A stretch of DNA of 64,000 nucleotides. It comes from Desulforamulus ruminis DSM 2154 (GTDB taxonomy: Bacteria; Bacillota; Desulfotomaculia; Desulfotomaculales; Desulfotomaculaceae). Each line of letters begins with the position of its first letter. Position 1 is the stretch's first letter. The translations under genes and the position numbers were made by a program. Positions 13,871 through 26,212 of this stretch are shown piece after piece. Under the pieces are notes generated by a model. That model saw nothing but the letters and a program-made list of their open reading frames with translations, had not been told where the DNA came from and searched no databases. The DNA is taken from positions 1,674,001 to 1,738,000 of the forward strand of contig NC_015589.1 in NCBI RefSeq assembly GCF_000215085.1. The letters are read 5' to 3'.

Positions 13871-15211
13871 ATGGATAAAACCATCTCCAACGAAAAAATA
13901 TCCAATAACTATTTTGATGGCTTAAAGGTATCCAACACGCATAAAATACTTTTCTTTATCATTATGCTCGCTTATTTTTTCGAACAAATGGACAACTGGA
14001 ATTTTGGTTTTATTGCCCCGGCGCTAATGAAATCCTGGGGAATCACCATGACAGATGTAGGCAGAATCCAATTTGCCTATTTTGTAGGAATGACCCTGGG
14101 TGGGCTCACAGGCGGGATAATCTCCGATCTCATCGGTCGCAGGAAAACATTCCTGGGGGCCATCGTGTTGTTTTCACTGGCCTCAGTGGTTAACGGTCTT
14201 ACCAGCGACCTGACAGTATTCACCATTTCCAGGGCTTTAACCGGATTTGGCGTCTTTTGCCTTATGGTGACCTCCCAGGCCTATATTGCGGAAATGGCTC
14301 CTGCCGAAAGCCGAGGTAAGTGGCAGGGACTGGTGGCTGCGGTGGGATTCTGCGCCGTTCCCTTTATCGGGGCCATGTGCAGGGCGGTGGTACCTATGCA
14401 TGACGATGCCTGGCGTTATATTTTCTATCTGGGCGGGCTTGGATTGATTGGATTTCTTATCGGGCTCAAATATTTGAAAGAGTCTCCCCGCTGGCTTGTG
14501 GCGCAAAAAAGGCTGTCAGAAGCAGAAAAAGTAGTAGAAGAAATTACCGGCATAAAAGTGGACTTGACGGAAGCTGCGGCCAAAATATCTCCCAGGAATA
14601 AGGTAATGGAAGTGCTGATAGGCATGTTTTCTAGAAAATATATCAAGAGAACACTGGTGGTATTGTCTTTCATAGCGCTTACCACTCCCGCCACCTTTGT
14701 GGTGACTGTATGGACGCCTACCCTGTTAAGCCAAAGAGGTTTAAGCCTGGAAGACAGCCTGATGGCTTCTACCATTCTAATGATTGGGGTACCGGTAGGA
14801 TGCTTCCTGGCCTCACTGATTTCCGACAAGGGCGGCAGGAAAATTCCGCTGGCCATATTAGCTGTTTTGATTAGCTTATGTGCTGTTATTTTTGGTCAAG
14901 TTAACGGATTTATTCCCATTGTTTGTTGCGGTTTTGTCCTCATAGCCTGCGTTATGGCCTTAGGTTTTGTAAGCTTCAGCTATATTGCCGAACAGTACCC
15001 CACTAAAATGCGTAACACCGCCACCGGCTTTCATAACGCTTCGGGACGCATGGCCACTTCAGTTATCCAACTGGCCGTACCGGTGGTTTTTGCCCAGCAC
15101 AGTTTTGCCGGAGTCTATAACATGGTGGCGCTATTAGTCCTTCTGCCAGTGGTGCCGTTGTTAATCTGGGGGATGCGCACCGGGGGCAAATCACTGGAAG
15201 AAATCAGTTAG
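13871..15211 (+). CDS. MFS transporter (organic acid/sugar-type, 12 TM)
   Basis: 446 residues with 12 predicted membrane segments. The signature loop after TM2, D-L-I-G-R-R-K-T, and a matching D-K-G-G-R-K in the second half place it in the sugar-porter/aromatic-acid symporter part of the MFS. E-S-P-R-W-L in the central loop is also typical. The ribosome site is AGGGGGG. It faces a convergent LysR gene and precedes the lipoyl/arylsulfotransferase gene run, so it may import that pathway's substrate; that is inference only. Its C-terminal codons are partly duplicated just after the stop. Confidence 0.85.
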   Translation: MDKTISNEKISNNYFDGLKVSNTHKILFFIIMLAYFFEQMDNWNFGFIAPALMKSWGITMTDVGRIQFAYFVGMTLGGLTGGIISDLIGRRKTFLGAIVLFSLASVVNGLTSDLTVFTISRALTGFGVFCLMVTSQAYIAEMAPAESRGKWQGLVAAVGFCAVPFIGAMCRAVVPMHDDAWRYIFYLGGLGLIGFLIGLKYLKESPRWLVAQKRLSEAEKVVEEITGIKVDLTEAAAKISPRNKVMEVLIGMFSRKYIKRTLVVLSFIALTTPATFVVTVWTPTLLSQRGLSLEDSLMASTILMIGVPVGCFLASLISDKGGRKIPLAILAVLISLCAVIFGQVNGFIPIVCCGFVLIACVMALGFVSFSYIAEQYPTKMRNTATGFHNASGRMATSVIQLAVPVVFAQHSFAGVYNMVALLVLLPVVPLLIWGMRTGGKSLEEIS

Positions 15212-15283: not shown

Positions 15284-15320
15284 AAGGCTGATTATGAAAG
15301 TGACCATAATCAGCCTTTAT
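15284..15320. terminator. bidirectional terminator between MFS and LysR genes
   Basis: A 13-base perfect stem AAGGCTGATTATG / CATAATCAGCCTT between convergent genes, overlapping the LysR stop codon. Confidence 0.85.
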
Positions 15321-16242
15321 GCACTCTTTTTCCGGTTAGTTTGTGGGCCGCAACAAGTTTAAGAATGCTAAGAAAACCCTCGGTGACAGGATTTAAAGAG
15401 TTAATAAAGCACCCGTAAATCAATTTAAAGCTGTTTTCGATGGGGACGGTGATAATGGCCTCATCATCAAGCAGTCTGAAGTCTGAAAAACTTGTAAGAC
15501 CAACGGCTTTGCGATCCAGAATGGCTTTTTTATAAACTTCCACATAACTGGTTTTTACAGAGATATTTAAAGAACTGAGATCCTTAAACATGTGTTTAAT
15601 CATACTCAGGTAGTTTTCGTGGCTGTATAAAGCAATGGGATGAGCGGATAGTTCTTTTATGGTAATGATTTTCTTTTTGGCCAGCACAGAGGTTTTAGCC
15701 ACACAGGCCAGCAACGGATTTTCCGATATTTTTTCAAAGGTGGCATTCACTCGAAGAATCTGCTCCTGATAGGAATAGTCCGGCAGAATCACTAAACCAA
15801 TATCCACAACGCCGTCGTTTATTTGTTGGATAATTTCAAGGAAGTGCTGCTTTTCTTCAACCTGAACATCCACCTGTGGAAACTTCCGGTTAAATGAGTC
15901 CAATACTTCAGGTAAATAGTTGTAACTTACGTTGGGCGCAGCACTGATGGACAGATGACCCTTTATGGATTGCACGTTGGTATTGGTCAGTGGCTGCACC
16001 ACCTGCAACAGTTCTTCATATTTTTGAACGATTTCCAGAGCCTGCTCAACCACGGCTTTACCGGCGTCGGTTAAGGTCACTCCGTGACGGTTGCGGTGGA
16101 GCAAGGTAACGTTTAAATCGTTCTCTAATTTTTGAATAATTTGGCTTAAGCCCTGTTGGGAAATGAAGAATCGCTTGGCAGTTAGCGAGATGGATTCTGT
16201 TTTAGCGATATCCACCAAATAATTTAAGTGCTGAATGTCCAT
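15310..16242 (-). CDS. LysR family transcriptional regulator
   Basis: About 310 residues. An N-terminal winged helix-turn-helix (L-N-Y-L-V-D-I-A-K-T-E-S, then S-Q-Q-G-L-S-Q-I-I-Q-K-L-E) and a ~200-residue substrate-binding domain with C-V-A-K-T-S-V and A-L-Y-S-H-E-N motifs fit the family. The second ATG (16242) is preferred, being seven bases after AAGGAG. It is convergent with the MFS gene and divergent from the gcvH-like run, so it probably controls one or both in response to a small organic ligand. Confidence 0.9.
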   Translation of the reverse strand: MDIQHLNYLVDIAKTESISLTAKRFFISQQGLSQIIQKLENDLNVTLLHRNRHGVTLTDAGKAVVEQALEIVQKYEELLQVVQPLTNTNVQSIKGHLSISAAPNVSYNYLPEVLDSFNRKFPQVDVQVEEKQHFLEIIQQINDGVVDIGLVILPDYSYQEQILRVNATFEKISENPLLACVAKTSVLAKKKIITIKELSAHPIALYSHENYLSMIKHMFKDLSSLNISVKTSYVEVYKKAILDRKAVGLTSFSDFRLLDDEAIITVPIENSFKLIYGCFINSLNPVTEGFLSILKLVAAHKLTGKRVHKG

Positions 16243-16296
16243 TCGCATACTCCTTTCCCAGGAAATGATTGATCCAGTTGTATACAGGCCTAGCTT

Positions 16297-16449: not shown

Positions 16450-16475
16450 AGAAAAGCAAAGAAAGGAATGTGAAC

Positions 16476-16874
16476 ATGACAAAACCCATCGAAGAACTGA
16501 CTTTCCTTAACGACCTTCATTACTTCCACGAACATACCTGGGCTAAAGTTGAAGGAGATTTAGTTAAAATAGGGATTACCGATTTTGCCCAGGACAGTTT
16601 GGGCAGCATTATCTTTGTCGAACTACCCAATCCGGGCGAGGTCTATGATCAAGGAGATGAATTTGGACAGGCTGAATCAGCCAAAACTGTTTCAGCACTC
16701 TATATGCCCGTGAGCGGTGAAATTGTTAAGGTCAACAGTGTACTGGAGGACGCCCCCCAAAATGTGAACGAAGATCCCTATGGTGCCGGCTGGATGGTGA
16801 TTGTAAAGCCCAGCAACCCTGCTGAAGTAAAAGAACTGCTGTCTAAGGAAGAGTACCTGAATCAGATTAAGTAA
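16476..16874 (+). CDS. GcvH-like lipoyl carrier protein
   Basis: 132 residues from the ATG at 16476 (AGGA eight bases upstream). The fold matches glycine cleavage H protein: W-A-K-V-E-G near 22, G-I-T-D-F-A-Q-D-S-L-G, and the lipoylation hairpin E-S-A-K-T-V-S-A-L-Y-M-P-V-S-G with the modifiable Lys70. No gcvT or gcvP gene is nearby, so it probably does not serve glycine cleavage. It is first in a run with a glutaredoxin fusion, an ASST-fold protein and dihydrolipoamide dehydrogenase, suggesting that the lipoyl arm carries electrons or a sulfur/acyl group for that set. Confidence 0.85.
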   Translation: MTKPIEELTFLNDLHYFHEHTWAKVEGDLVKIGITDFAQDSLGSIIFVELPNPGEVYDQGDEFGQAESAKTVSALYMPVSGEIVKVNSVLEDAPQNVNEDPYGAGWMVIVKPSNPAEVKELLSKEEYLNQIK

Positions 16875-16889
16875 AAGGAGGGATGAAAT

Positions 16890-17729
16890 ATGAGTTTTAC
16901 CATTTACACAGCCACCGGCTGTACCCGTTGTAAAATCATTAAACAATTGATGGATGAACGGGGGATTGTTTTTGAAGAGCAAGATATGAAGGCCGAAGGA
17001 AAAGAAGCCTTTCAAAAGTTTTATGCTGCCAACCGCAAAGCTATTTTTCGCGGCCCGGAAGGTGTGGAGTTTCCCCTGCTGACCGACGGTACCGCCATTC
17101 GTCAGGGTATTGGCGCTTCCATCGCCTATCTTCTCTCCGGCAATAAACTGGACGGTTTTTTTAGCGCAGGCACTTTGCATAAAGAATGGGTGGACGGAAT
17201 CCATGTTTCTGGCGGCGACCCGGTATATGCTGCAGACTTTATGGCTGTTCTGAGGTACCTGAAAGGCAATCATATGAAACTGCAGATCGATACCAATGGC
17301 TTAAACAGCCAGATTCTTCAGCAGATCCTGGATGAGCAACTGGCTGAAGTGGTTATTATGAATGTATTGGCACCCAGGGAACTTTATCGTTACATGGTGG
17401 GTTCCAACATGGATATTGTGGAAGTAGAAAAGACCATGACCCTGGTTACTCAGTTTCCCGAATATAAATTTCAGACCCTCGTAGCTCCCGTCCTGCGTTC
17501 CGAAGGAGAGATTGGTTATCTTACTGCCAAAGAGGTAGGAGAGACCGCTAAATTCATTGCCGAGGTAACCGGCAGTATGAAAAATCCTTATCTGATTAAG
17601 CGCTTCAATCCCAAAGAATGCAAGGATGAACGCTTTAAAACCGTGAAACCCATGGCGGCGGAGGACTTATTACCTTACCGCACGGCCGCCAGAAACCATC
17701 AGGTGTTTGTGGAAGTGGAAAAGGCTTAA
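16890..17729 (+). CDS. glutaredoxin fused to a radical-SAM-activase-like domain lacking the cluster motif
   Basis: 279 residues. Residues 1-85 form a glutaredoxin/NrdH domain with T-G-C-T-R-C (Cys11, Cys14) and a cis-Pro region (F-P-L-L-T-D-G). Residues ~95-245 resemble the barrel of pyruvate-formate-lyase/ribonucleotide-reductase activating enzymes, with V-S-G-G-D-P (107-111, cf. the G-G-E-P SAM motif) and D-T-N-G (134-137). The C-x3-C-x2-C cluster motif that should precede G-G-D-P is absent, so it is probably not a working radical SAM enzyme. It sits 15 bp after the lipoyl carrier gene, with a GGAGGG ribosome site. It may reduce or activate the ASST-like protein; this is inference. Confidence 0.7.
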   Translation: MSFTIYTATGCTRCKIIKQLMDERGIVFEEQDMKAEGKEAFQKFYAANRKAIFRGPEGVEFPLLTDGTAIRQGIGASIAYLLSGNKLDGFFSAGTLHKEWVDGIHVSGGDPVYAADFMAVLRYLKGNHMKLQIDTNGLNSQILQQILDEQLAEVVIMNVLAPRELYRYMVGSNMDIVEVEKTMTLVTQFPEYKFQTLVAPVLRSEGEIGYLTAKEVGETAKFIAEVTGSMKNPYLIKRFNPKECKDERFKTVKPMAAEDLLPYRTAARNHQVFVEVEKA

Positions 17730-17761
17730 GCCTTAATATAAAAAGTACAGGAGGAAGGAAT

Positions 17762-19210
17762 ATGACATATCCAAGTGTTTACCCCACAGGGGTCACCATT
17801 TACAAGCCGGAAAAAAGTTGGAGCGGTTATACCATTTTTCAAGCCAGGGAGCTTGGTGCGCTGCTCATTGATATGAACGGTTCGGAAATCAATCTTTGGA
17901 AAGGACTGCATGGATTTCCCAATAAGCTTTTTCCCGGCGGCTACGTCCTAGGCCATACCGCCGAAAGAAATAACGCCTTTGGCATGCAGGACCAGACCGA
18001 TCTGGTGCAGGTGGACTGGGAAGGCAATATTGTCTGGAAGTTTAACCAGTATGAGTTTATTGAAGATCCCGGTGAAGAACCTCAGTGGATGGCCAGACAG
18101 CACCATGACTATCAGCGCGAAGGAAATCCGGTAGGGTACTATGTTCCCGGCATGGACCCCCAGGTGAATAAAGGCAATACGCTGATCCTCTGCCATAAAA
18201 ATGTTAAGAATCCGAAAATTTCGGAGAAAATGCTTTTAGACGATGTCATTATTGAAGTAGACTGGGAAGGGAATATTATTTGGGAATGGGCCTGCAATGA
18301 ACACTTCGACGAATTGGGTTTTGACGAAGCCGCCAAAAACATCTTGGCCCGGGATCCCAATATGAGGTCCGCCGGCGGCGGCATGGGCGACTGGATGCAC
18401 GTGAACTCCATGTCTGTGCTGGGCCCCAACCGGTGGTACGATGCCGGTGATGAGCGCTTCCACCCCGATAATATCATTATTGATGGGCGTGAAACCAATA
18501 TTATCGCCATTATCGATAAGCAAACCGGCAAAATTGTTTGGAAATTAGGGCCCTACTATGATAGCAGCGAAGAGTTGAAGAAACTGGGCTGGATCATCGG
18601 CCAGCACCATGCCCACATGATTCCCCGGGGGCTGCCCGGTGAAGGAAATATTTTGGTATTTGATAATGGTGGCTGGGCCGGTTACGGTTCACCTAATCCC
18701 GGTTCTCCCACCGGAGCGAAAAATGCTCTGCGGGATTATTCCAGAGTATTGGAAATTGACCCTACCACACTGAAGATTGTTTGGCAGTACACTCCTGCTG
18801 AAGCCGGTTTGGTGGTGCCTGCCGACAGCAACCGTTTCTATAGTCCCTTCATCAGCAGCGCCCAGCGACTGCCCAACGGCAATACTTTAATTACGGAAGG
18901 ATCCGGCGGACGTCTAATTGAGGTAACCGCAGAGCATGAAATTGTTTGGGAATATATCAGTCCCTATTGGGGTGAAAAATTTAAACTAAACATGATTTAC
19001 CGGGCTTACCGGGTGCCTTATGAATGGGTTCCTCAGGTGGAACGCCCCCAGGAAGTTCCCATCCAGCCCATTGATGTTACTACCTTCCGGGTACCGGGCG
19101 CTGCAGGCCCCGGCAGAAAGAAAGAGGTTGCGGTGGAAGGCACCAAGCCTTACCAGGGTGACGGTGCCCTGTGCGTTGCCGCAGGCGACGAATTTGAAGA
19201 AAAAGAATAA
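17762..19210 (+). CDS. arylsulfotransferase (ASST)-fold protein, cytosolic form
   Basis: 482 residues with repeated beta-propeller blades of the type V-D-W-E-G-N-I-V/I-W-x-W/F. It has histidine-bearing motifs D-W-M-H-V-N-S (His213) and G-Q-H-H-A-H (282-285) followed by L-V-F-D-N-G, the arrangement of arylsulfate sulfotransferases that move sulfate between phenols through a sulfo-histidine. Unlike the periplasmic E. coli-type enzyme there is no signal peptide and no N-terminal beta-sandwich region. It lies between thiol-redox genes with an AGGAGG site, so it may act on a sulfur compound in the cytosol. Exact reaction unknown. Confidence 0.7.
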   Translation: MTYPSVYPTGVTIYKPEKSWSGYTIFQARELGALLIDMNGSEINLWKGLHGFPNKLFPGGYVLGHTAERNNAFGMQDQTDLVQVDWEGNIVWKFNQYEFIEDPGEEPQWMARQHHDYQREGNPVGYYVPGMDPQVNKGNTLILCHKNVKNPKISEKMLLDDVIIEVDWEGNIIWEWACNEHFDELGFDEAAKNILARDPNMRSAGGGMGDWMHVNSMSVLGPNRWYDAGDERFHPDNIIIDGRETNIIAIIDKQTGKIVWKLGPYYDSSEELKKLGWIIGQHHAHMIPRGLPGEGNILVFDNGGWAGYGSPNPGSPTGAKNALRDYSRVLEIDPTTLKIVWQYTPAEAGLVVPADSNRFYSPFISSAQRLPNGNTLITEGSGGRLIEVTAEHEIVWEYISPYWGEKFKLNMIYRAYRVPYEWVPQVERPQEVPIQPIDVTTFRVPGAAGPGRKKEVAVEGTKPYQGDGALCVAAGDEFEEKE

Positions 19211-19278
19211 ATCTAATGGGGGGCTTCCGGCCCCCCGTTCATTCATCAGGAAAGTATTCGTGAACAGGGGGTAAGGTC

Positions 19279-20655
19279 ATGACGTACAATGCTGTGGTTA
19301 TTGGCGGCGGTCCCGGGGGATATGTCGCAGCCATTCGAATTGCCCAGTTAGGCGGCAAAGTAGCGCTGGTGGAAAAGGATCAACTAGGCGGTACCTGTCT
19401 AAACAGAGGCTGCATCCCAACGAAATCCCTGATTGCTGCTGTAGACAAATTAAAGGGCGTGGAGGAGGCAGCGGCCTTTGGTATTGCAGTGAATCAGCCG
19501 GTGGTGGATTTTAACAAAGTTCAGGGCAGAAAAGAAGAAGTGGTAGAAAAACTGGTCAGCGGCATCCAATTTCTATTGAATAAAAATAAGGTAGATTTTT
19601 TTAAGGGCGCCGCTAAAATTAAAGCTCCCGGTGTGGTGGAAGTTGCCGGCGACGGTGAAACCAAGGTACTGCAGTGTGAAAATATGGTGATTGCCACCGG
19701 TTCCAGCCCGGCTTTAATTAAAAGTCTGGGGTACAACGGCACCAGCATCATTACCAGCGAGGAAGCTCTGCAACTGCAGGAAATACCGAAAAGCCTGCTG
19801 ATTATCGGAGCCGGGGTTATTGGCTGTGAATTTGCCCATATTTACGGCAGTCTGGGAACAGAGATTACCATGGTGGAAGCGGCACCCAGTATTTTATCTC
19901 TTCAGGATAAAGACATTTCCCGGCGCATGCAAACAATTTTTAAAAAGAAAAAGGTTACTATCAAAACCAATGGGTGCATTAAAAAGATTACCGAAGTGGA
20001 TGGCGGCATACAGGCCGAATTGGAAAATGGTGAACGCCTTACCGCCGAGAAAGCCCTCATCTCCATCGGTCGGGTGCTCAATACCCATAACCTGGGCTTG
20101 TCCAAAGCAGGGGTTGCCTTGGGAGAAAAGGGACAAATTTTAGTGAATGATCAAATGCAAACCAATATAAAAGGGATTTATGCCATTGGCGATGTGGTTA
20201 TGAAATACCAATTGGCCCATGTGGCTTCGGCCCAGGGAGTAATTGCGGCGGAAAACATCATGGGCAAGGAGGCGGTCATGGATTACCGGGCGGTTCCCAG
20301 TTGTGTTTTCACCAGCCCTGAAATCGCTTCGGTGGGGATGACCGAGCAGCAGGTTAAGGACAAAGGCCTTCCGGTCAAAACCGGCAAGTTTAATTTTATG
20401 GCCAACGGCAAGGCCCTGAGCATGGGCGAAGGGGATGGGTTTGTTAAGGTTGTGACCCACGCCGAAACCGATAGAATATTGGGCGTACACATCATTGGTC
20501 CCCATGCCTCAGATTTAATTGCCGAAGCCACCCTGGCGGTCCAAAAGGGTCTGACTGCCAAGGAACTGGCTGGGGTTATTCACGCTCACCCCACCCTGGC
20601 GGAAGCGTTGATGGAAGCGGCGGAGAATGTACACGGCTTAAGTATTCACGGCTAA
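19279..20655 (+). CDS. lpdA: dihydrolipoamide dehydrogenase
   Basis: 458 residues. An FAD-binding G-G-G-P-G-G-Y, the redox disulfide G-G-T-C-L-N-R-G-C (Cys40/Cys45), a second nucleotide-binding G-A-G-V-I-G-C-E-F, Y-A-I-G-D-V and the C-terminal catalytic H-A-H-P-T-L-x-E make this a full E3-type enzyme that reoxidises dihydrolipoyl groups with NAD+. It would serve the lipoyl protein at the start of the run, since no E1/E2 genes of a 2-oxoacid dehydrogenase are near. The gap from the ASST-fold gene is 68 bp with no clear terminator. Confidence 0.93.
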   Translation: MTYNAVVIGGGPGGYVAAIRIAQLGGKVALVEKDQLGGTCLNRGCIPTKSLIAAVDKLKGVEEAAAFGIAVNQPVVDFNKVQGRKEEVVEKLVSGIQFLLNKNKVDFFKGAAKIKAPGVVEVAGDGETKVLQCENMVIATGSSPALIKSLGYNGTSIITSEEALQLQEIPKSLLIIGAGVIGCEFAHIYGSLGTEITMVEAAPSILSLQDKDISRRMQTIFKKKKVTIKTNGCIKKITEVDGGIQAELENGERLTAEKALISIGRVLNTHNLGLSKAGVALGEKGQILVNDQMQTNIKGIYAIGDVVMKYQLAHVASAQGVIAAENIMGKEAVMDYRAVPSCVFTSPEIASVGMTEQQVKDKGLPVKTGKFNFMANGKALSMGEGDGFVKVVTHAETDRILGVHIIGPHASDLIAEATLAVQKGLTAKELAGVIHAHPTLAEALMEAAENVHGLSIHG

Positions 20656-20829: not shown

Positions 20830-21540
20830 ATGAAGGATAAGGCGGCTTTACTTTCGACATCACCTTGGGTAAAAGCACATTTCTTAAAATCAGAGGATTT
20901 AACCAAAGAGGATATTGACTGGATTCAAAAAATCGGTCAAAAAAGGTGTTTTCCCCGAGATGCCATAATCATTGGGATGGGCAGTTGCGGCGAGCAAATG
21001 TACTATTTACTGAAAGGAACGGTACGCAACTCCATCTTAAATGCCGGTGGGGTGGAAAAGTCGGTTTGCTATGTAACTGCCGGCTGTTTTCTGGGCGAGG
21101 AGCCTTTTTTTCACGGACAGCCTACCCTGTACCATACCGTGGTTCTTGAGGAGGTTGAAGCCCTGGAGATCAGCCGTAAATACATGAAAGAAATGATATC
21201 GCGACCGGGCTTAGCCCATATTTTGCTAAATTCGGTAAGCTTTAAATCCCGTATCCTGGCCACCCAGATTGAAGACCTTGCCTTTCGTAATACGCTGGAA
21301 AAGGTCTCGCGAATCCTTTACTGCATTTTGGCGGAGAATAACGGAGACCGGGAAAAATCCCGGCCCATCCACACAAGTCAACAGGAATTGGCCGCCATTG
21401 CCGGTGCTCATCGGGTATCCATTACCAATGCCATTTCCCAGCTAAAAAAGGAAGGGATCATTAACAGGGCCAGGGATGGGTCCATTATCGTGCGGGATTG
21501 GGAAAGACTGAAAGAGAAAGGATTTAGCTGCCATATCTAA
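20830..21540 (+). CDS. Crp/Fnr family transcriptional regulator
   Basis: 236 residues: an N-terminal cyclic-nucleotide-type sensor domain (G-x-x-G-E-Q-M-Y-Y-L-L-K-G-T-V, then G-E-E-P-F-F-H-G) and a C-terminal helix-turn-helix (S-Q-Q-E-L-A-A-I-A-G-A-H-R-V-S-I-T-N-A-I-S-Q-L). It lacks an N-terminal Fe-S cysteine set like that of Fnr, although scattered Cys are present. The position after lpdA suggests control of the lipoyl/ASST run, as CprK/Crp-type regulators do in related anaerobes. Ligand unknown. Confidence 0.88.
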   Translation: MKDKAALLSTSPWVKAHFLKSEDLTKEDIDWIQKIGQKRCFPRDAIIIGMGSCGEQMYYLLKGTVRNSILNAGGVEKSVCYVTAGCFLGEEPFFHGQPTLYHTVVLEEVEALEISRKYMKEMISRPGLAHILLNSVSFKSRILATQIEDLAFRNTLEKVSRILYCILAENNGDREKSRPIHTSQQELAAIAGAHRVSITNAISQLKKEGIINRARDGSIIVRDWERLKEKGFSCHI

Positions 21541-21739: not shown

Positions 21740-22117
21740 CTAAGGAGGTATTTTTTATAGCGGAGGAAGGAATAAATCTTCAAATTTCAGTTTTAACGGT
21801 TGTTACCTTAACTGTGGAAATTGCTCAGGTAGACGGGCTTAACAAAAAGACGAGTACTATAAATTGGTTGAAATAAGAGCGAACTCTATTTTTAAAAAGC
21901 ATAAGGAGAAACTGATCATTATAAACAATTAAAAGTAGAATATATCGTCAAGCAAGGGGATATGGCACAGGAAATTGTTGATTTTTCCGAGAAAGAGCAA
22001 CATGACCAAATTGTAATAGGCAGCCGGGGCCTTAGTAATATCAAAGAATTATTTCTTAGCAGTGTAAGTCATAAGGTGATTCAAATAGCCAAATGCCCAA
22101 TCGTTATTGTGAAGTAG
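21740..22117 (+). pseudogene. decayed universal stress protein (UspA) gene
   Basis: The last ~60 codons before TAG at 22115-22117 read as a typical UspA C-terminus: Q-G-D-M-A-Q-E-I-V, D-Q-I-V-I-G-S-R-G-L-S, S-V-S-H-K-V, and C-P-I-V-I-V-K. Upstream coding continues in another frame (Y-Y-K-L-V-E-I-R-A-N-S from about 21849), separated by a frameshift near 21905-21925. In-frame stops occur near 21840. A good AAGGAGGT remains near 21741 but no start codon survives. It lies between the riboswitch and crcB, so it was once fluoride-controlled. Confidence 0.8.
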
Positions 22118-22125
22118 GTGATTCT

Positions 22126-22530
22126 ATGATGAATTATTTAGTAGTTGGCCTGGGGGGGATCTTAGGCTCTATAAGTAGATATGCCTTGAGTTCCTTTGTC
22201 TCAGGATTAAACAAAACGGCTTTTCCCTATGGCACATTAAGTGTCAATCTGATTGGTTGTTTCTTGTTAAGTTTTATTGCTTATGGAAGTATTCTTAAGT
22301 GGAATCTACCCAAAAGATATATTCTTGCTATTAATACCGGATTTATTGGGTCTTTTACGACCTTCTCAACATTTTCACTAGAAGCTCTAAACCTAATCAT
22401 TGAAGGCAAACTTATACTAGCCATTGCCTATGTGTTAGTCAGCGTAATGGCAGGGCTAACGCTCTCCTGGCTGGGAATCTATGCTTCAACCAAGATTTAT
22501 CAAAAAGCCCGGTTAAGAACAGGCATGTAA
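22126..22530 (+). CDS. crcB: fluoride channel CrcB/Fluc, first copy
   Basis: 134 residues, four membrane helices. Family motifs G-G-I-L-G-S-I-S-R-Y near the N-terminus, P-Y-G-T-L-S-V-N-L-I-G-C-F-L and T-G-F-I-G-S-F-T-T-F-S-T-F-S are all present. It exports fluoride as half of a dual-topology dimer. The ATG at 22126 follows AGGTG within the end of the usp remnant. It is paired with a second crcB 13 bp on, which suggests a heterodimeric Fluc as in other Firmicutes. Confidence 0.95.
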   Translation: MMNYLVVGLGGILGSISRYALSSFVSGLNKTAFPYGTLSVNLIGCFLLSFIAYGSILKWNLPKRYILAINTGFIGSFTTFSTFSLEALNLIIEGKLILAIAYVLVSVMAGLTLSWLGIYASTKIYQKARLRTGM

Positions 22531-22543
22531 AGGAGTCCTGGTT

Positions 22544-22906
22544 TTGAAAATATATCTTTTAATTGCTATTGGTGGATTATTTGGTGCCATCAGCAGGTTT
22601 GCGCTATCAGCTTTTATTCAATCCAAGCACAACAGACGATTTCCCTATGCAACTTTTATCATTAATCTCACTGGCTCATTTTTACTTGGTTTTCTCTTTG
22701 GAAGGCATAATTTAAGGCCTGAATTCTTCTTTTTGTTTGGAACTGGCTTTATGGGAGCATATACCACTTTCTCTACTTTTGAGTTTGAAAGCATAGAATT
22801 GATACGAAAAGAGAAGTTATTACTCGCTATAAGCTATCTGGTTTTCAGTGTTATTATTGGCGTCTTTTTAGCATATCTTGGTTATTTAATCGGAAAGGGT
22901 TTATAA
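22544..22906 (+). CDS. crcB: fluoride channel CrcB/Fluc, second copy
   Basis: 120 residues beginning with TTG behind AAGGAG. Four membrane helices with G-G-L-F-G-A-I-S-R-F, F-I-I-N-L-T-G-S-F-L-L-G and T-G-F-M-G-A-Y-T-T-F-S-T-F-E-F-E. Its charged-residue pattern differs from the first copy, consistent with opposite membrane orientation. Controlled by the upstream fluoride riboswitch. Confidence 0.95.
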   Translation: MKIYLLIAIGGLFGAISRFALSAFIQSKHNRRFPYATFIINLTGSFLLGFLFGRHNLRPEFFFLFGTGFMGAYTTFSTFEFESIELIRKEKLLLAISYLVFSVIIGVFLAYLGYLIGKGL

Positions 22907-24777: not shown

Positions 24778-24810
24778 TAAAGAAGTCCGGATTTTTCCGG
24801 ACTTCTTTAT
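24778..24810. terminator. bidirectional terminator
   Basis: AGAAGTCCGG / CCGGACTTCT between convergent genes, with A/T runs on both sides. Confidence 0.9.
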
Positions 24811-25253
24811 TTGCGTAGATGGCCTGCGATTTGGGTAGAGATTTCTTCGCTTTGTTGCTTCACCTTGGCCAAGTACATAAACACACTGCCAGGATAATCA
24901 ATTTGCTCCTGAAGAACCGCATGTTCCAGGGAGGTCCTTACCAGTGAAATGACACAGTCCGGCGAATGGTTGTCCCGGCATTCCTTACATAGTTTACAGC
25001 TTTCAGCAATGGTCTTGGATATGGCATCGGAATAATAGGGCTTCAAGTCATTTTGGGGAATTAACTTACTGGCCCCCGGTATGTCCAACACACCCTTTTG
25101 ATCGGCGAAATGCAAAACCTTTTTGGCAAAGCCCACCAGACAAGTAGACTCTTTGCATTGGCCGGCTGAGAGGGTATCACAATTCTGACAAAAATCGTTT
25201 AACATCTTCATTAAGGTCTCAAAATTCACATCCGTGTTCTTGGCAACCGACAT
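24807..25253 (-). CDS. cysteine-rich protein next to a siroheme-type reductase
   Basis: 148 residues with two Cys groups: F-C-Q-N-C ... Q-C-K-E-S-T-C near the N-terminus and C-K-L-C-K-E-C-R ... D-C in the middle. These could hold metal or Fe-S clusters. The rest is helical with no signal peptide. AAAGGAT precedes the ATG. It lies 19 bp after the reductase-like gene in the same direction, so the two are probably co-transcribed and may interact. I do not recognise the family. Confidence 0.6.
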   Translation of the reverse strand: MSVAKNTDVNFETLMKMLNDFCQNCDTLSAGQCKESTCLVGFAKKVLHFADQKGVLDIPGASKLIPQNDLKPYYSDAISKTIAESCKLCKECRDNHSPDCVISLVRTSLEHAVLQEQIDYPGSVFMYLAKVKQQSEEISTQIAGHLRK

Positions 25254-25272: not shown

Positions 25273-25983
25273 TTACTCCATTAAAAATGCCGCAAATTCG
25301 TCTTGTTCTTCCTTTCCACTGCTGTAAAGCTCTGTAGGTGGGGTAAAGGTCTTTATACCCACCCGTTCAATGGTTTTGCACAAGCGTTCGTGAGGCTCGG
25401 CATGACTGCGATATTTTTCCAGAATAAAATCAACCACGTTAAATAGATTATTTTTGTTTACATCAGCGGCTACTTTGCTGCCATGAATGGGTTGATTAGT
25501 GGCGCCTCTGCCGCCAATCACAACATCAAATTTATCCCCGCCTCTGGCAATGAGGCCAAGGTCTGCACAATAAGGTTCCGTACAGCCCCGGGAACAGCCG
25601 GCGGTAGAGATCTTAAAATCTTTGGGCACGTCTTGGCCCAGATAGCGCTGCTGCAGCTCGATTCCTACCTCAAGGGCCGGACCCAAGGATCTGGGGCAAA
25701 GTTCGGCGCCACCCGGACAGGCCTTTATACTGCGGACCTTATTGCCAAAGGGTGCAATTTGCAGATCCAGTGTTTTCAGTGCCTGCAATAAAGCGGGAAT
25801 ATTTTCTTCCTCCAGAACGGCAATCAAAGTCTGCCGAATGCCACATTTAATTCTCCAGACGCCTGTGTCCCGTGCGGCTTCGGCTAGTCCCATAAATTGT
25901 TCCGGCGTAAGAATGCCTCCGGGAACAACAATATTTACCGCATATAAACCGTTACGCTGTTGACGGAAAATGGCTTCGCCCAA
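25273..25983 (-). CDS. nitrite/sulfite reductase-like 4Fe-4S siroheme half protein
   Basis: About 236 residues: a ferredoxin-like half domain (L-Y-A-V-N-I-V-V-P-G-G ... W-R-I-K-C-G-I-R-Q-T) followed by a cluster/siroheme domain with A-C-P-G-G-A-E-L-C-P and A-G-C-S-R-G-C, the C-x5-C and C-x3-C pairs of sulfite/nitrite reductases. It is shorter than DsrA/B or NirA. The frame is open to 26043, but a perfect AGGAGG seven bases before the TTG at 25983 sets the start. It may reduce sulfite or a similar oxyanion for assimilation; electron donor and true substrate are not shown. Confidence 0.7.
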   Translation of the reverse strand: MGEAIFRQQRNGLYAVNIVVPGGILTPEQFMGLAEAARDTGVWRIKCGIRQTLIAVLEEENIPALLQALKTLDLQIAPFGNKVRSIKACPGGAELCPRSLGPALEVGIELQQRYLGQDVPKDFKISTAGCSRGCTEPYCADLGLIARGGDKFDVVIGGRGATNQPIHGSKVAADVNKNNLFNVVDFILEKYRSHAEPHERLCKTIERVGIKTFTPPTELYSSGKEEQDEFAAFLME

Positions 25984-26212
25984 AGTGATTCCTCCTATAC
26001 AAATATTTTCCATTATGGCTGCCATTCTCCGTTGATAGGACAAATGGTTGCAGCCTACTGCTCAAGGGTTTTAGCCTGAGCTGGTGGAAACGATGATCCA
26101 ATATTAACCATTTAATTCGACAATTTTATTTAATTTTCCTCTTCTTGCAAAGACTTTTCCCGATTTCGGGGTTTGCGCTGAGTTGTATCAACTTCCCAAA
26201 GGAACCCACGGC

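Follow-up and report, generated by a model that had tools for sequence, protein, structure and literature searches.

Why Desulforamulus ruminis, a rumen bacterium that reduces sulfate and can also use sulfite and thiosulfate (PMC3569383), should encode a GcvH-like lipoyl carrier and a dihydrolipoamide dehydrogenase (Lpd) on either side of a glutaredoxin (Grx) fusion and an arylsulfotransferase (ASST)-fold protein is not evident. The four genes form a tightly spaced run (gaps of 15, 32 and 68 bases; Table 1) in the window, that is, the whole 64,000-nucleotide stretch analysed here, bases 1674001-1738000 of the single-contig D. ruminis DSM 2154 genome (3,969,014 bp). Family profiles and sequence confirm the identities and positions that a sequence-only reading had assigned to all four; the lipoyl lysine counted there as Lys70 is K72 of the longer reading used here, because the start is taken as GTG 16470 rather than ATG 16476. 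The redox-active disulfide of Lpd is intact (GGTCLNRGCIP), and the D. ruminis run contains neither dsb nor hdr genes.

Table 1. Features of the window, in window coordinates.
Feature	Position	Strand	Remarks
MFS transporter, aromatic-acid/H+ symporter-like	13871..15211	+	TIGR00895 best match, under its cut-off
LysR regulator	15310..16248	-	divergent from the run; same position in loci L034 and L035
Lipoyl carrier, GcvH-like	16470..16874	+	GTG start; GCV_H 1.5e-39
Lipoyl Lys K72 of the carrier	codon 16683-16685	+	motif ESAK; K70 if counted from ATG 16476
Grx/radical-SAM-fold fusion	16890..17729	+	Grx C11-T-R-C14 at codons 16920-16931; NrdG2-like domain 1.4e-13
ASST-fold protein	17762..19210	+	PF05935 1.8e-28
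ASST residues H213, N215, R243, H282 and tail C471	codons 18605-18607 (H282) and 19172-19174 (C471)	+	
Dihydrolipoamide dehydrogenase (Lpd)	19279..20655	+	TIGR01350 lipoamide_DH 565 bits, cut-off 409
Crp/Fnr family regulator	20830..21540	+	neighbour in 23/81 loci
Two adjoining small membrane proteins	22093-22906		CrcB/Fluc fluoride channel pair-like (by sequence)
Cysteine-rich protein	24807-25253	-	148 aa; beside the siroheme protein; no NCBIfam match
Siroheme nitrite/sulfite reductase-like protein	25273-26043	-	256 aa, small and stand-alone; all matches under cut-offs

It is conceivable that the run merely places a second H/E3 pair of glycine cleavage or of an oxoacid dehydrogenase beside unrelated genes by chance, since the carrier passes the GcvH cut-off (TIGR00527). 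However, the D. ruminis genome has a full gcvT-gcvH-gcvPA-gcvPB operon at another place, which includes an H gene of its own, the association recurs across phyla, and the ASST-linked H proteins of Bacillota and Desulfobacterota form a group separate from the remaining GcvH proteins that these genomes encode (one change, versus a shuffled mean of 11.7). On the strength of the separate operon and the separate H group (59/79 on the tree) the glycine-cleavage explanation was rejected, and we see next to no chance that it is correct. The separation of the H proteins is nonetheless moderate rather than strong, because the dividing branch is supported at only 59/79, and the inference from the protein tree that the ASST-linked protein is a dedicated lipoyl carrier is likewise of moderate strength. 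An H protein that works only in glycine cleavage, with gcvT and gcvP at another locus, would have refuted the sequence-only reading, but the gcv operon has an H protein of its own. A third, stand-alone GcvH-like gene (G000:C1:2527333-2527689; L116:4828-5199) lies near genes for a sigma54-type regulator containing CBS domains, an OsmC-like protein and a sodium/solute symporter-like protein; its product groups with Desulfovirgula proteins rather than with gcv-operon or ASST-linked H proteins.

The lipoyl lysine is kept in all ASST-linked H proteins, and lipoate synthesis is linked to the module in some genomes: lipB-lipA follow the Lpd gene in D. aeronauticus and in an uncultured Desulfotomaculum, and lie near it at a third sister locus, in a Clostridiales MAG, while four module-bearing Desulforamulus genomes have a single lipA over the cut-off, which adjoins the module. 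With the lysine conserved and lipB-lipA linked to the module in some genomes, genuine lipoylation of the carrier is predicted to be likely. The D. ruminis genome yielded no lipA and a single lipoate-protein ligase, so that this organism probably scavenges lipoate, as far as gene content can tell.

A scan of 84,980 species genomes found 240 stretches encoding a relative of the ASST-fold protein, the best 80 of which were analysed. In these 80 loci the protein is 67-84% identical over its full length, although they span Bacillota, Desulfobacterota, Fusobacteriota and Enterobacterales, and it is because identity is so high across phyla that we infer horizontal spread. The hosts are sulfate and sulfite reducers of several phyla, Cetobacterium, Paenibacillus and plant-associated enterobacteria; D. 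aeronauticus is among the genomes nearest to D. ruminis. Of 81 neighbourhoods (the best 80 plus the window) searched with profiles, 44 encode the Grx fusion, 14 the lipoyl carrier, 16 Lpd and 12 both carrier and Lpd; a Grx gene accompanies every linked carrier (14/14) and every linked Lpd (16/16). A comparison of 60 genomes from the order of D. ruminis shows the Grx fusion in 8/9 that have an ASST gene, whether full-length or decayed, and in 0/51 without one (Fisher P 3.5e-9), the sole exception being an 86%-complete genome. In one genome a decayed ASST copy with several in-frame stops (G007:C30:15053-16479) was observed, the Grx fusion and lipA persisting together on another contig (C18).

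The sequence-only reading had proposed to look for the four families together in the same order. Membership is indeed conserved, but order varies: carrier, Grx fusion, ASST and Lpd (H-G-A-D) succeed one another in D. ruminis and Desulforamulus, whereas H-D-G-A, H-G-A-transporter and divergent D-G-H/A arrangements occur elsewhere. On the ASST tree, the presence or absence of H and Lpd switches about 11 times, which indicates that this link was repeatedly made or lost, and since order and strand vary as well, descent of a single operon cannot be the whole reason for the linkage. Most Desulfobacterota loci hold only ASST, Grx fusion and transporter, Moorella has no linked H or Lpd, and some carrier genomes (Desulfobulbales, Paenibacillus) lack the Grx gene without having a thioredoxin fusion; the four-gene set is not the minimal unit. 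Judged by these comparisons of genome sequence, the run is a co-inherited mobile module and not a product of chance, and the earlier impression of a self-contained, inducible-looking system gains support from its conservation across genomes.

What, then, does the ASST-fold protein do? It meets PF05935 and matches no NCBIfam model. It starts MTYPSVYPTG and has no hydrophobic leader, so that the signal peptide is missing as the sequence-only reading had noted, and in the absence of an export signal it is taken to be cytosolic. The ASST gene of E. coli CFT073 served as reference, aligned by profile and with its mature numbering checked. H356, N358, R374 and H436 of the E. coli enzyme, whose roles include that of H436 as the sulfated nucleophile (PMC13426309), pair with H213, N215, R243 and H282, all invariant among the ASST orthologs. 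E. coli H252 falls outside the aligned part, with H114/H115 as candidate counterparts, and T501 aligns with I364, which adjoins the invariant S365. The predicted structure is good except for the tail (pLDDT 83.5), and its best Foldseek match is the sulfotransferase Cpz4 (8.5e-17) of caprazamycin synthesis (PDB 9kf4/9kf6), the closest solved structure by sequence and fold; Cpz4, however, performs biosynthetic O-sulfation and is only 18-19% identical. In Desulfovibrio-type genomes the cytosolic protein has another ASST-like protein nearby (L091, L097, L112), which is probably exported; its N-terminal leader was seen in L091 and L097.

Among the closest known systems is the PAPS-independent AssT of E. 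coli CFT073 with DsbL/DsbI, which shares the propeller fold, the His/Arg/Asn centre and, probably, an aryl sulfate donor. However, the D. ruminis protein lacks a signal peptide and is not a periplasmic partner of DsbL/DsbI; the thiol partners of the module are reducing whereas DsbL/DsbI are oxidising, and importers are linked to the module. Moreover, only the module ASSTs have an invariant tail cysteine: the C-terminal tail is variable and predicted to be disordered, yet a single cysteine, C471, is present in 98/98 orthologs, and E. coli ASST has no cysteine at the equivalent position. As C471 falls in the low-confidence region of the model, its reach to H282 is not shown.

A possible partner for this cysteine is the Grx fusion. 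The earlier call of a glutaredoxin/SAM-like protein holds, with an NrdH-like Grx domain carrying CTRC at the N-terminus and an NrdG2-like domain behind it; the predicted fold is Grx plus radical-SAM barrel (pLDDT 94), with radical SAM enzymes and NrdH as the best Foldseek matches. C11 and C14 of the Grx domain are invariant in 52/52 orthologs and form the only conserved cysteine pair in this set, in which the CX3CX2C iron-sulfur motif is absent. An active radical-SAM enzyme was rejected because that motif is missing, and we can only guess that the degenerate domain serves in docking.

The ASST of enterobacteria, Cetobacterium and a Lachnospiraceae is instead fused to a thioredoxin domain (Pfam 8.8e-9 to 7e-14) that begins after the tail cysteine and has both CxxC and cis-Pro. 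None of the 15 loci with this fused form contains Grx, H or Lpd, and the Grx fusion is absent genome-wide from the nine such genomes that were searched. The mutual exclusion of thioredoxin fusion and Grx (Fisher P 5.5e-5, not corrected for kinship) suggests that one reductant replaces the other, or so it appears. The fused loci do not amount to many independent proofs, because the tree requires only 1-2 fusion events.

A tail cysteine combined with a fused thioredoxin or a separate Grx recalls the architecture of PAPS/APS reductases, which exist with fused and with separate reductants, plant APR having a C-terminal thioredoxin-fold domain. If our reading is right, the likeness to CysH and plant APR would extend to function, the sulfo group passing onto a tail cysteine from which thioredoxin or glutaredoxin frees sulfite; the ASST propeller is nevertheless an unrelated fold, its donor would be a sulfate ester rather than a nucleotide phosphosulfate, and catalysis by C471 is not shown. 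Thiols release sulfite from S-sulfo intermediates, as in PAPS reductase.

The scenario that we favour begins with the uptake of an organic anion that carries a sulfate ester and is most likely an aryl (phenolic) sulfate acid; the importer would be the MFS transporter in D. ruminis and other transporters elsewhere. The sulfo group would pass to the catalytic H282 of the cytosolic ASST-fold enzyme, freeing the phenol. It would then move on to a thiol, for which C471 in the mobile C-terminal tail is the likeliest candidate, to form S-sulfocysteine, from which the Grx partner would release sulfite through thiol exchange. The dihydrolipoyl-H protein would re-reduce the oxidised Grx and Lpd would recharge the lipoyl carrier with NADH, so that electrons would flow from NADH through Lpd, lipoyl-H and Grx to S-sulfo-C471; whether Grx or the lipoyl arm itself contacts C471 is open, either being possible. 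For ASSTs, a ping-pong mechanism with sulfo transfer to histidine is established (PMC13426309), but substrate, thiol acceptor, sulfite product and relay order are inferred in our case. We regard such a reductive organosulfate-cleaving system, with the sulfo group moving to histidine, thiol and finally sulfite, as the probable one, though without biochemistry and with its chemistry untested. The sequence-only reading had the propeller receiving electrons from a dihydrolipoyl arm or passing a sulfur group to it. That direction is supported by the embedded lipB-lipA, the invariant tail cysteine and the fusion to thioredoxin, but remains biochemically unproven. The tail cysteine, the thioredoxin-fused form and a likely sulfite product go beyond it.

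We cannot rule out that the protein is an ordinary cytosolic arylsulfotransferase with an O-acceptor, in which the thiol proteins do no more than maintain the redox state of C471 and C178 or switch it, and phenol-to-phenol shuffling yields no sulfite. Its catalytic centre is that of an O-acceptor ASST, known arylsulfotransferases (ASTs) transfer to phenols (PMC13426309), and a redox switch would account for conserved cysteines too. A chain from NADH through Lpd and lipoyl to Grx, lipoate synthesis genes and a thioredoxin fusion would, however, be a heavy apparatus for housekeeping in an anaerobe's cytosol, a single tail cysteine is no disulfide pair, and import systems accompany the ASST gene, which leaves O-transfer unlikely yet worth keeping in mind. 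Less likely still is that the S-sulfo group is not freed as sulfite but handed on by a small thiol or the lipoyl arm, in a form such as thiosulfate or an S-sulfo metabolite. Lipoyl arms do ferry groups between enzymes, and presentation of sulfur substrates is the role proposed for LbpA in the Hdr-like pathway (PMC6067878), but an Lpd beside the carrier suggests that electrons are delivered, the loci show no recurrent second sulfur enzyme, and the thioredoxin-fused form needs no lipoyl protein. LbpA of Hdr-like sulfur oxidation is likewise a GcvH-like lipoyl carrier in sulfur metabolism with linked lipoate assembly genes, but it has two cysteines (PMC6067878) where our carrier has none, and the D. 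ruminis run lacks hdr, would be reductive rather than oxidative and encodes Lpd alongside the carrier; membership of D. ruminis in the LbpA/Hdr system was rejected because its carrier has no cysteine and hdr genes are missing.

Organic-anion transporters of five unrelated kinds (MFS, Na/sulfate-type DASS, TctABC, TRAP and SsuABC-like) accompany the ASST in 66/81 loci, and it is for this reason that the module probably acts on an imported compound, the MFS protein of the window being the probable importer of the organic anion. Aryl sulfates have a higher transfer potential than alkyl sulfates, and because of this and the aromatic-acid-type MFS (a match under its cut-off) aryl donors are inferred over alkyl ones. 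That the propeller acts with the same thiol relay on another class, such as a sulfonate, a sulfamate or another activated group, seems quite improbable: enterobacterial loci do encode SsuA-like binding proteins and SsuC-like permeases (under family cut-offs), but the catalytic residues fit sulfo transfer from O-sulfates, and cleavage of a C-S bond requires different chemistry. A link to the Sao system, which a review describes as predicted selenoproteins tentatively linked to metals, was dropped, as it came down to one permease matching SaoP under the cut-off.

If sulfite is the product, it would serve DsrAB of sulfate reducers as electron acceptor, sparing them the ATP cost of Sat/Apr, and enterobacteria and Paenibacillus would use it in sulfur assimilation. 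DsrA exceeds its cut-off in 34/48 carrier genomes; enterobacteria and Paenibacillus give only weak matches to the DsrA model, as do control genomes with assimilatory enzymes. In nine of the 34 (G061, G062, G064, G065, G075, G080, G088, G095 and G097) AprA and Sat are both below cut-off or absent, and judged by gene content these should reduce sulfite yet be unable to reduce sulfate, so that the release of sulfate would not feed their respiration. One of the nine is the isolate Moorella sulfitireducens, for which sulfite has been described as electron acceptor (PMC11328732). Several of the others are MAGs and possibly incomplete, which weakens the count, the DsrA link is confounded by phylogeny, and no sulfite reductase gene was seen as a recurring neighbour in the ASST loci.

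The protein families are all known, and we rate the system rather than its parts as new, because neither the combination nor reductive sulfite release from sulfate esters was found in the open-access literature. Nothing relevant to an ASST-thioredoxin, ASST-lipoyl or organosulfate-to-sulfite link emerged there (most subscription journals lie outside this scope), in keeping with the earlier remark that no described pathway with this gene set was known. On balance we lean towards a new route of reductive desulfation, with sulfate esters turned directly into sulfite by an ASST-fold enzyme together with a lipoyl/glutaredoxin/thioredoxin relay. Natural acceptors and physiological roles are unknown for most bacterial ASTs (PMC13426309), and one conserved branch of them thereby gains a directly testable role, with a thiol as acceptor and sulfite as product. 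If true, lipoate would have another job in sulfur metabolism, in a system outside the classical complexes and the Hdr-like pathway, and organosulfates, such as phenol sulfates of gut and rumen or of plant or marine origin, would serve both as electron acceptors and as sources of sulfur, with no need for sulfate activation. Organisms that respire only sulfite could then live on organosulfates, and an unrecognised source of sulfide production would exist in gut and sediment.

In Cetobacterium, a Fusobacterium relative, pairs of ASST-thioredoxin and DASS transporter genes are arranged in tandem (L093:7986-14264). D. aeronauticus has three ASST paralogs (L035, L041 and L081), 83, 81 and 72% identical to the window protein, and the transporter context differs for each, as if they were specialised for different substrates.
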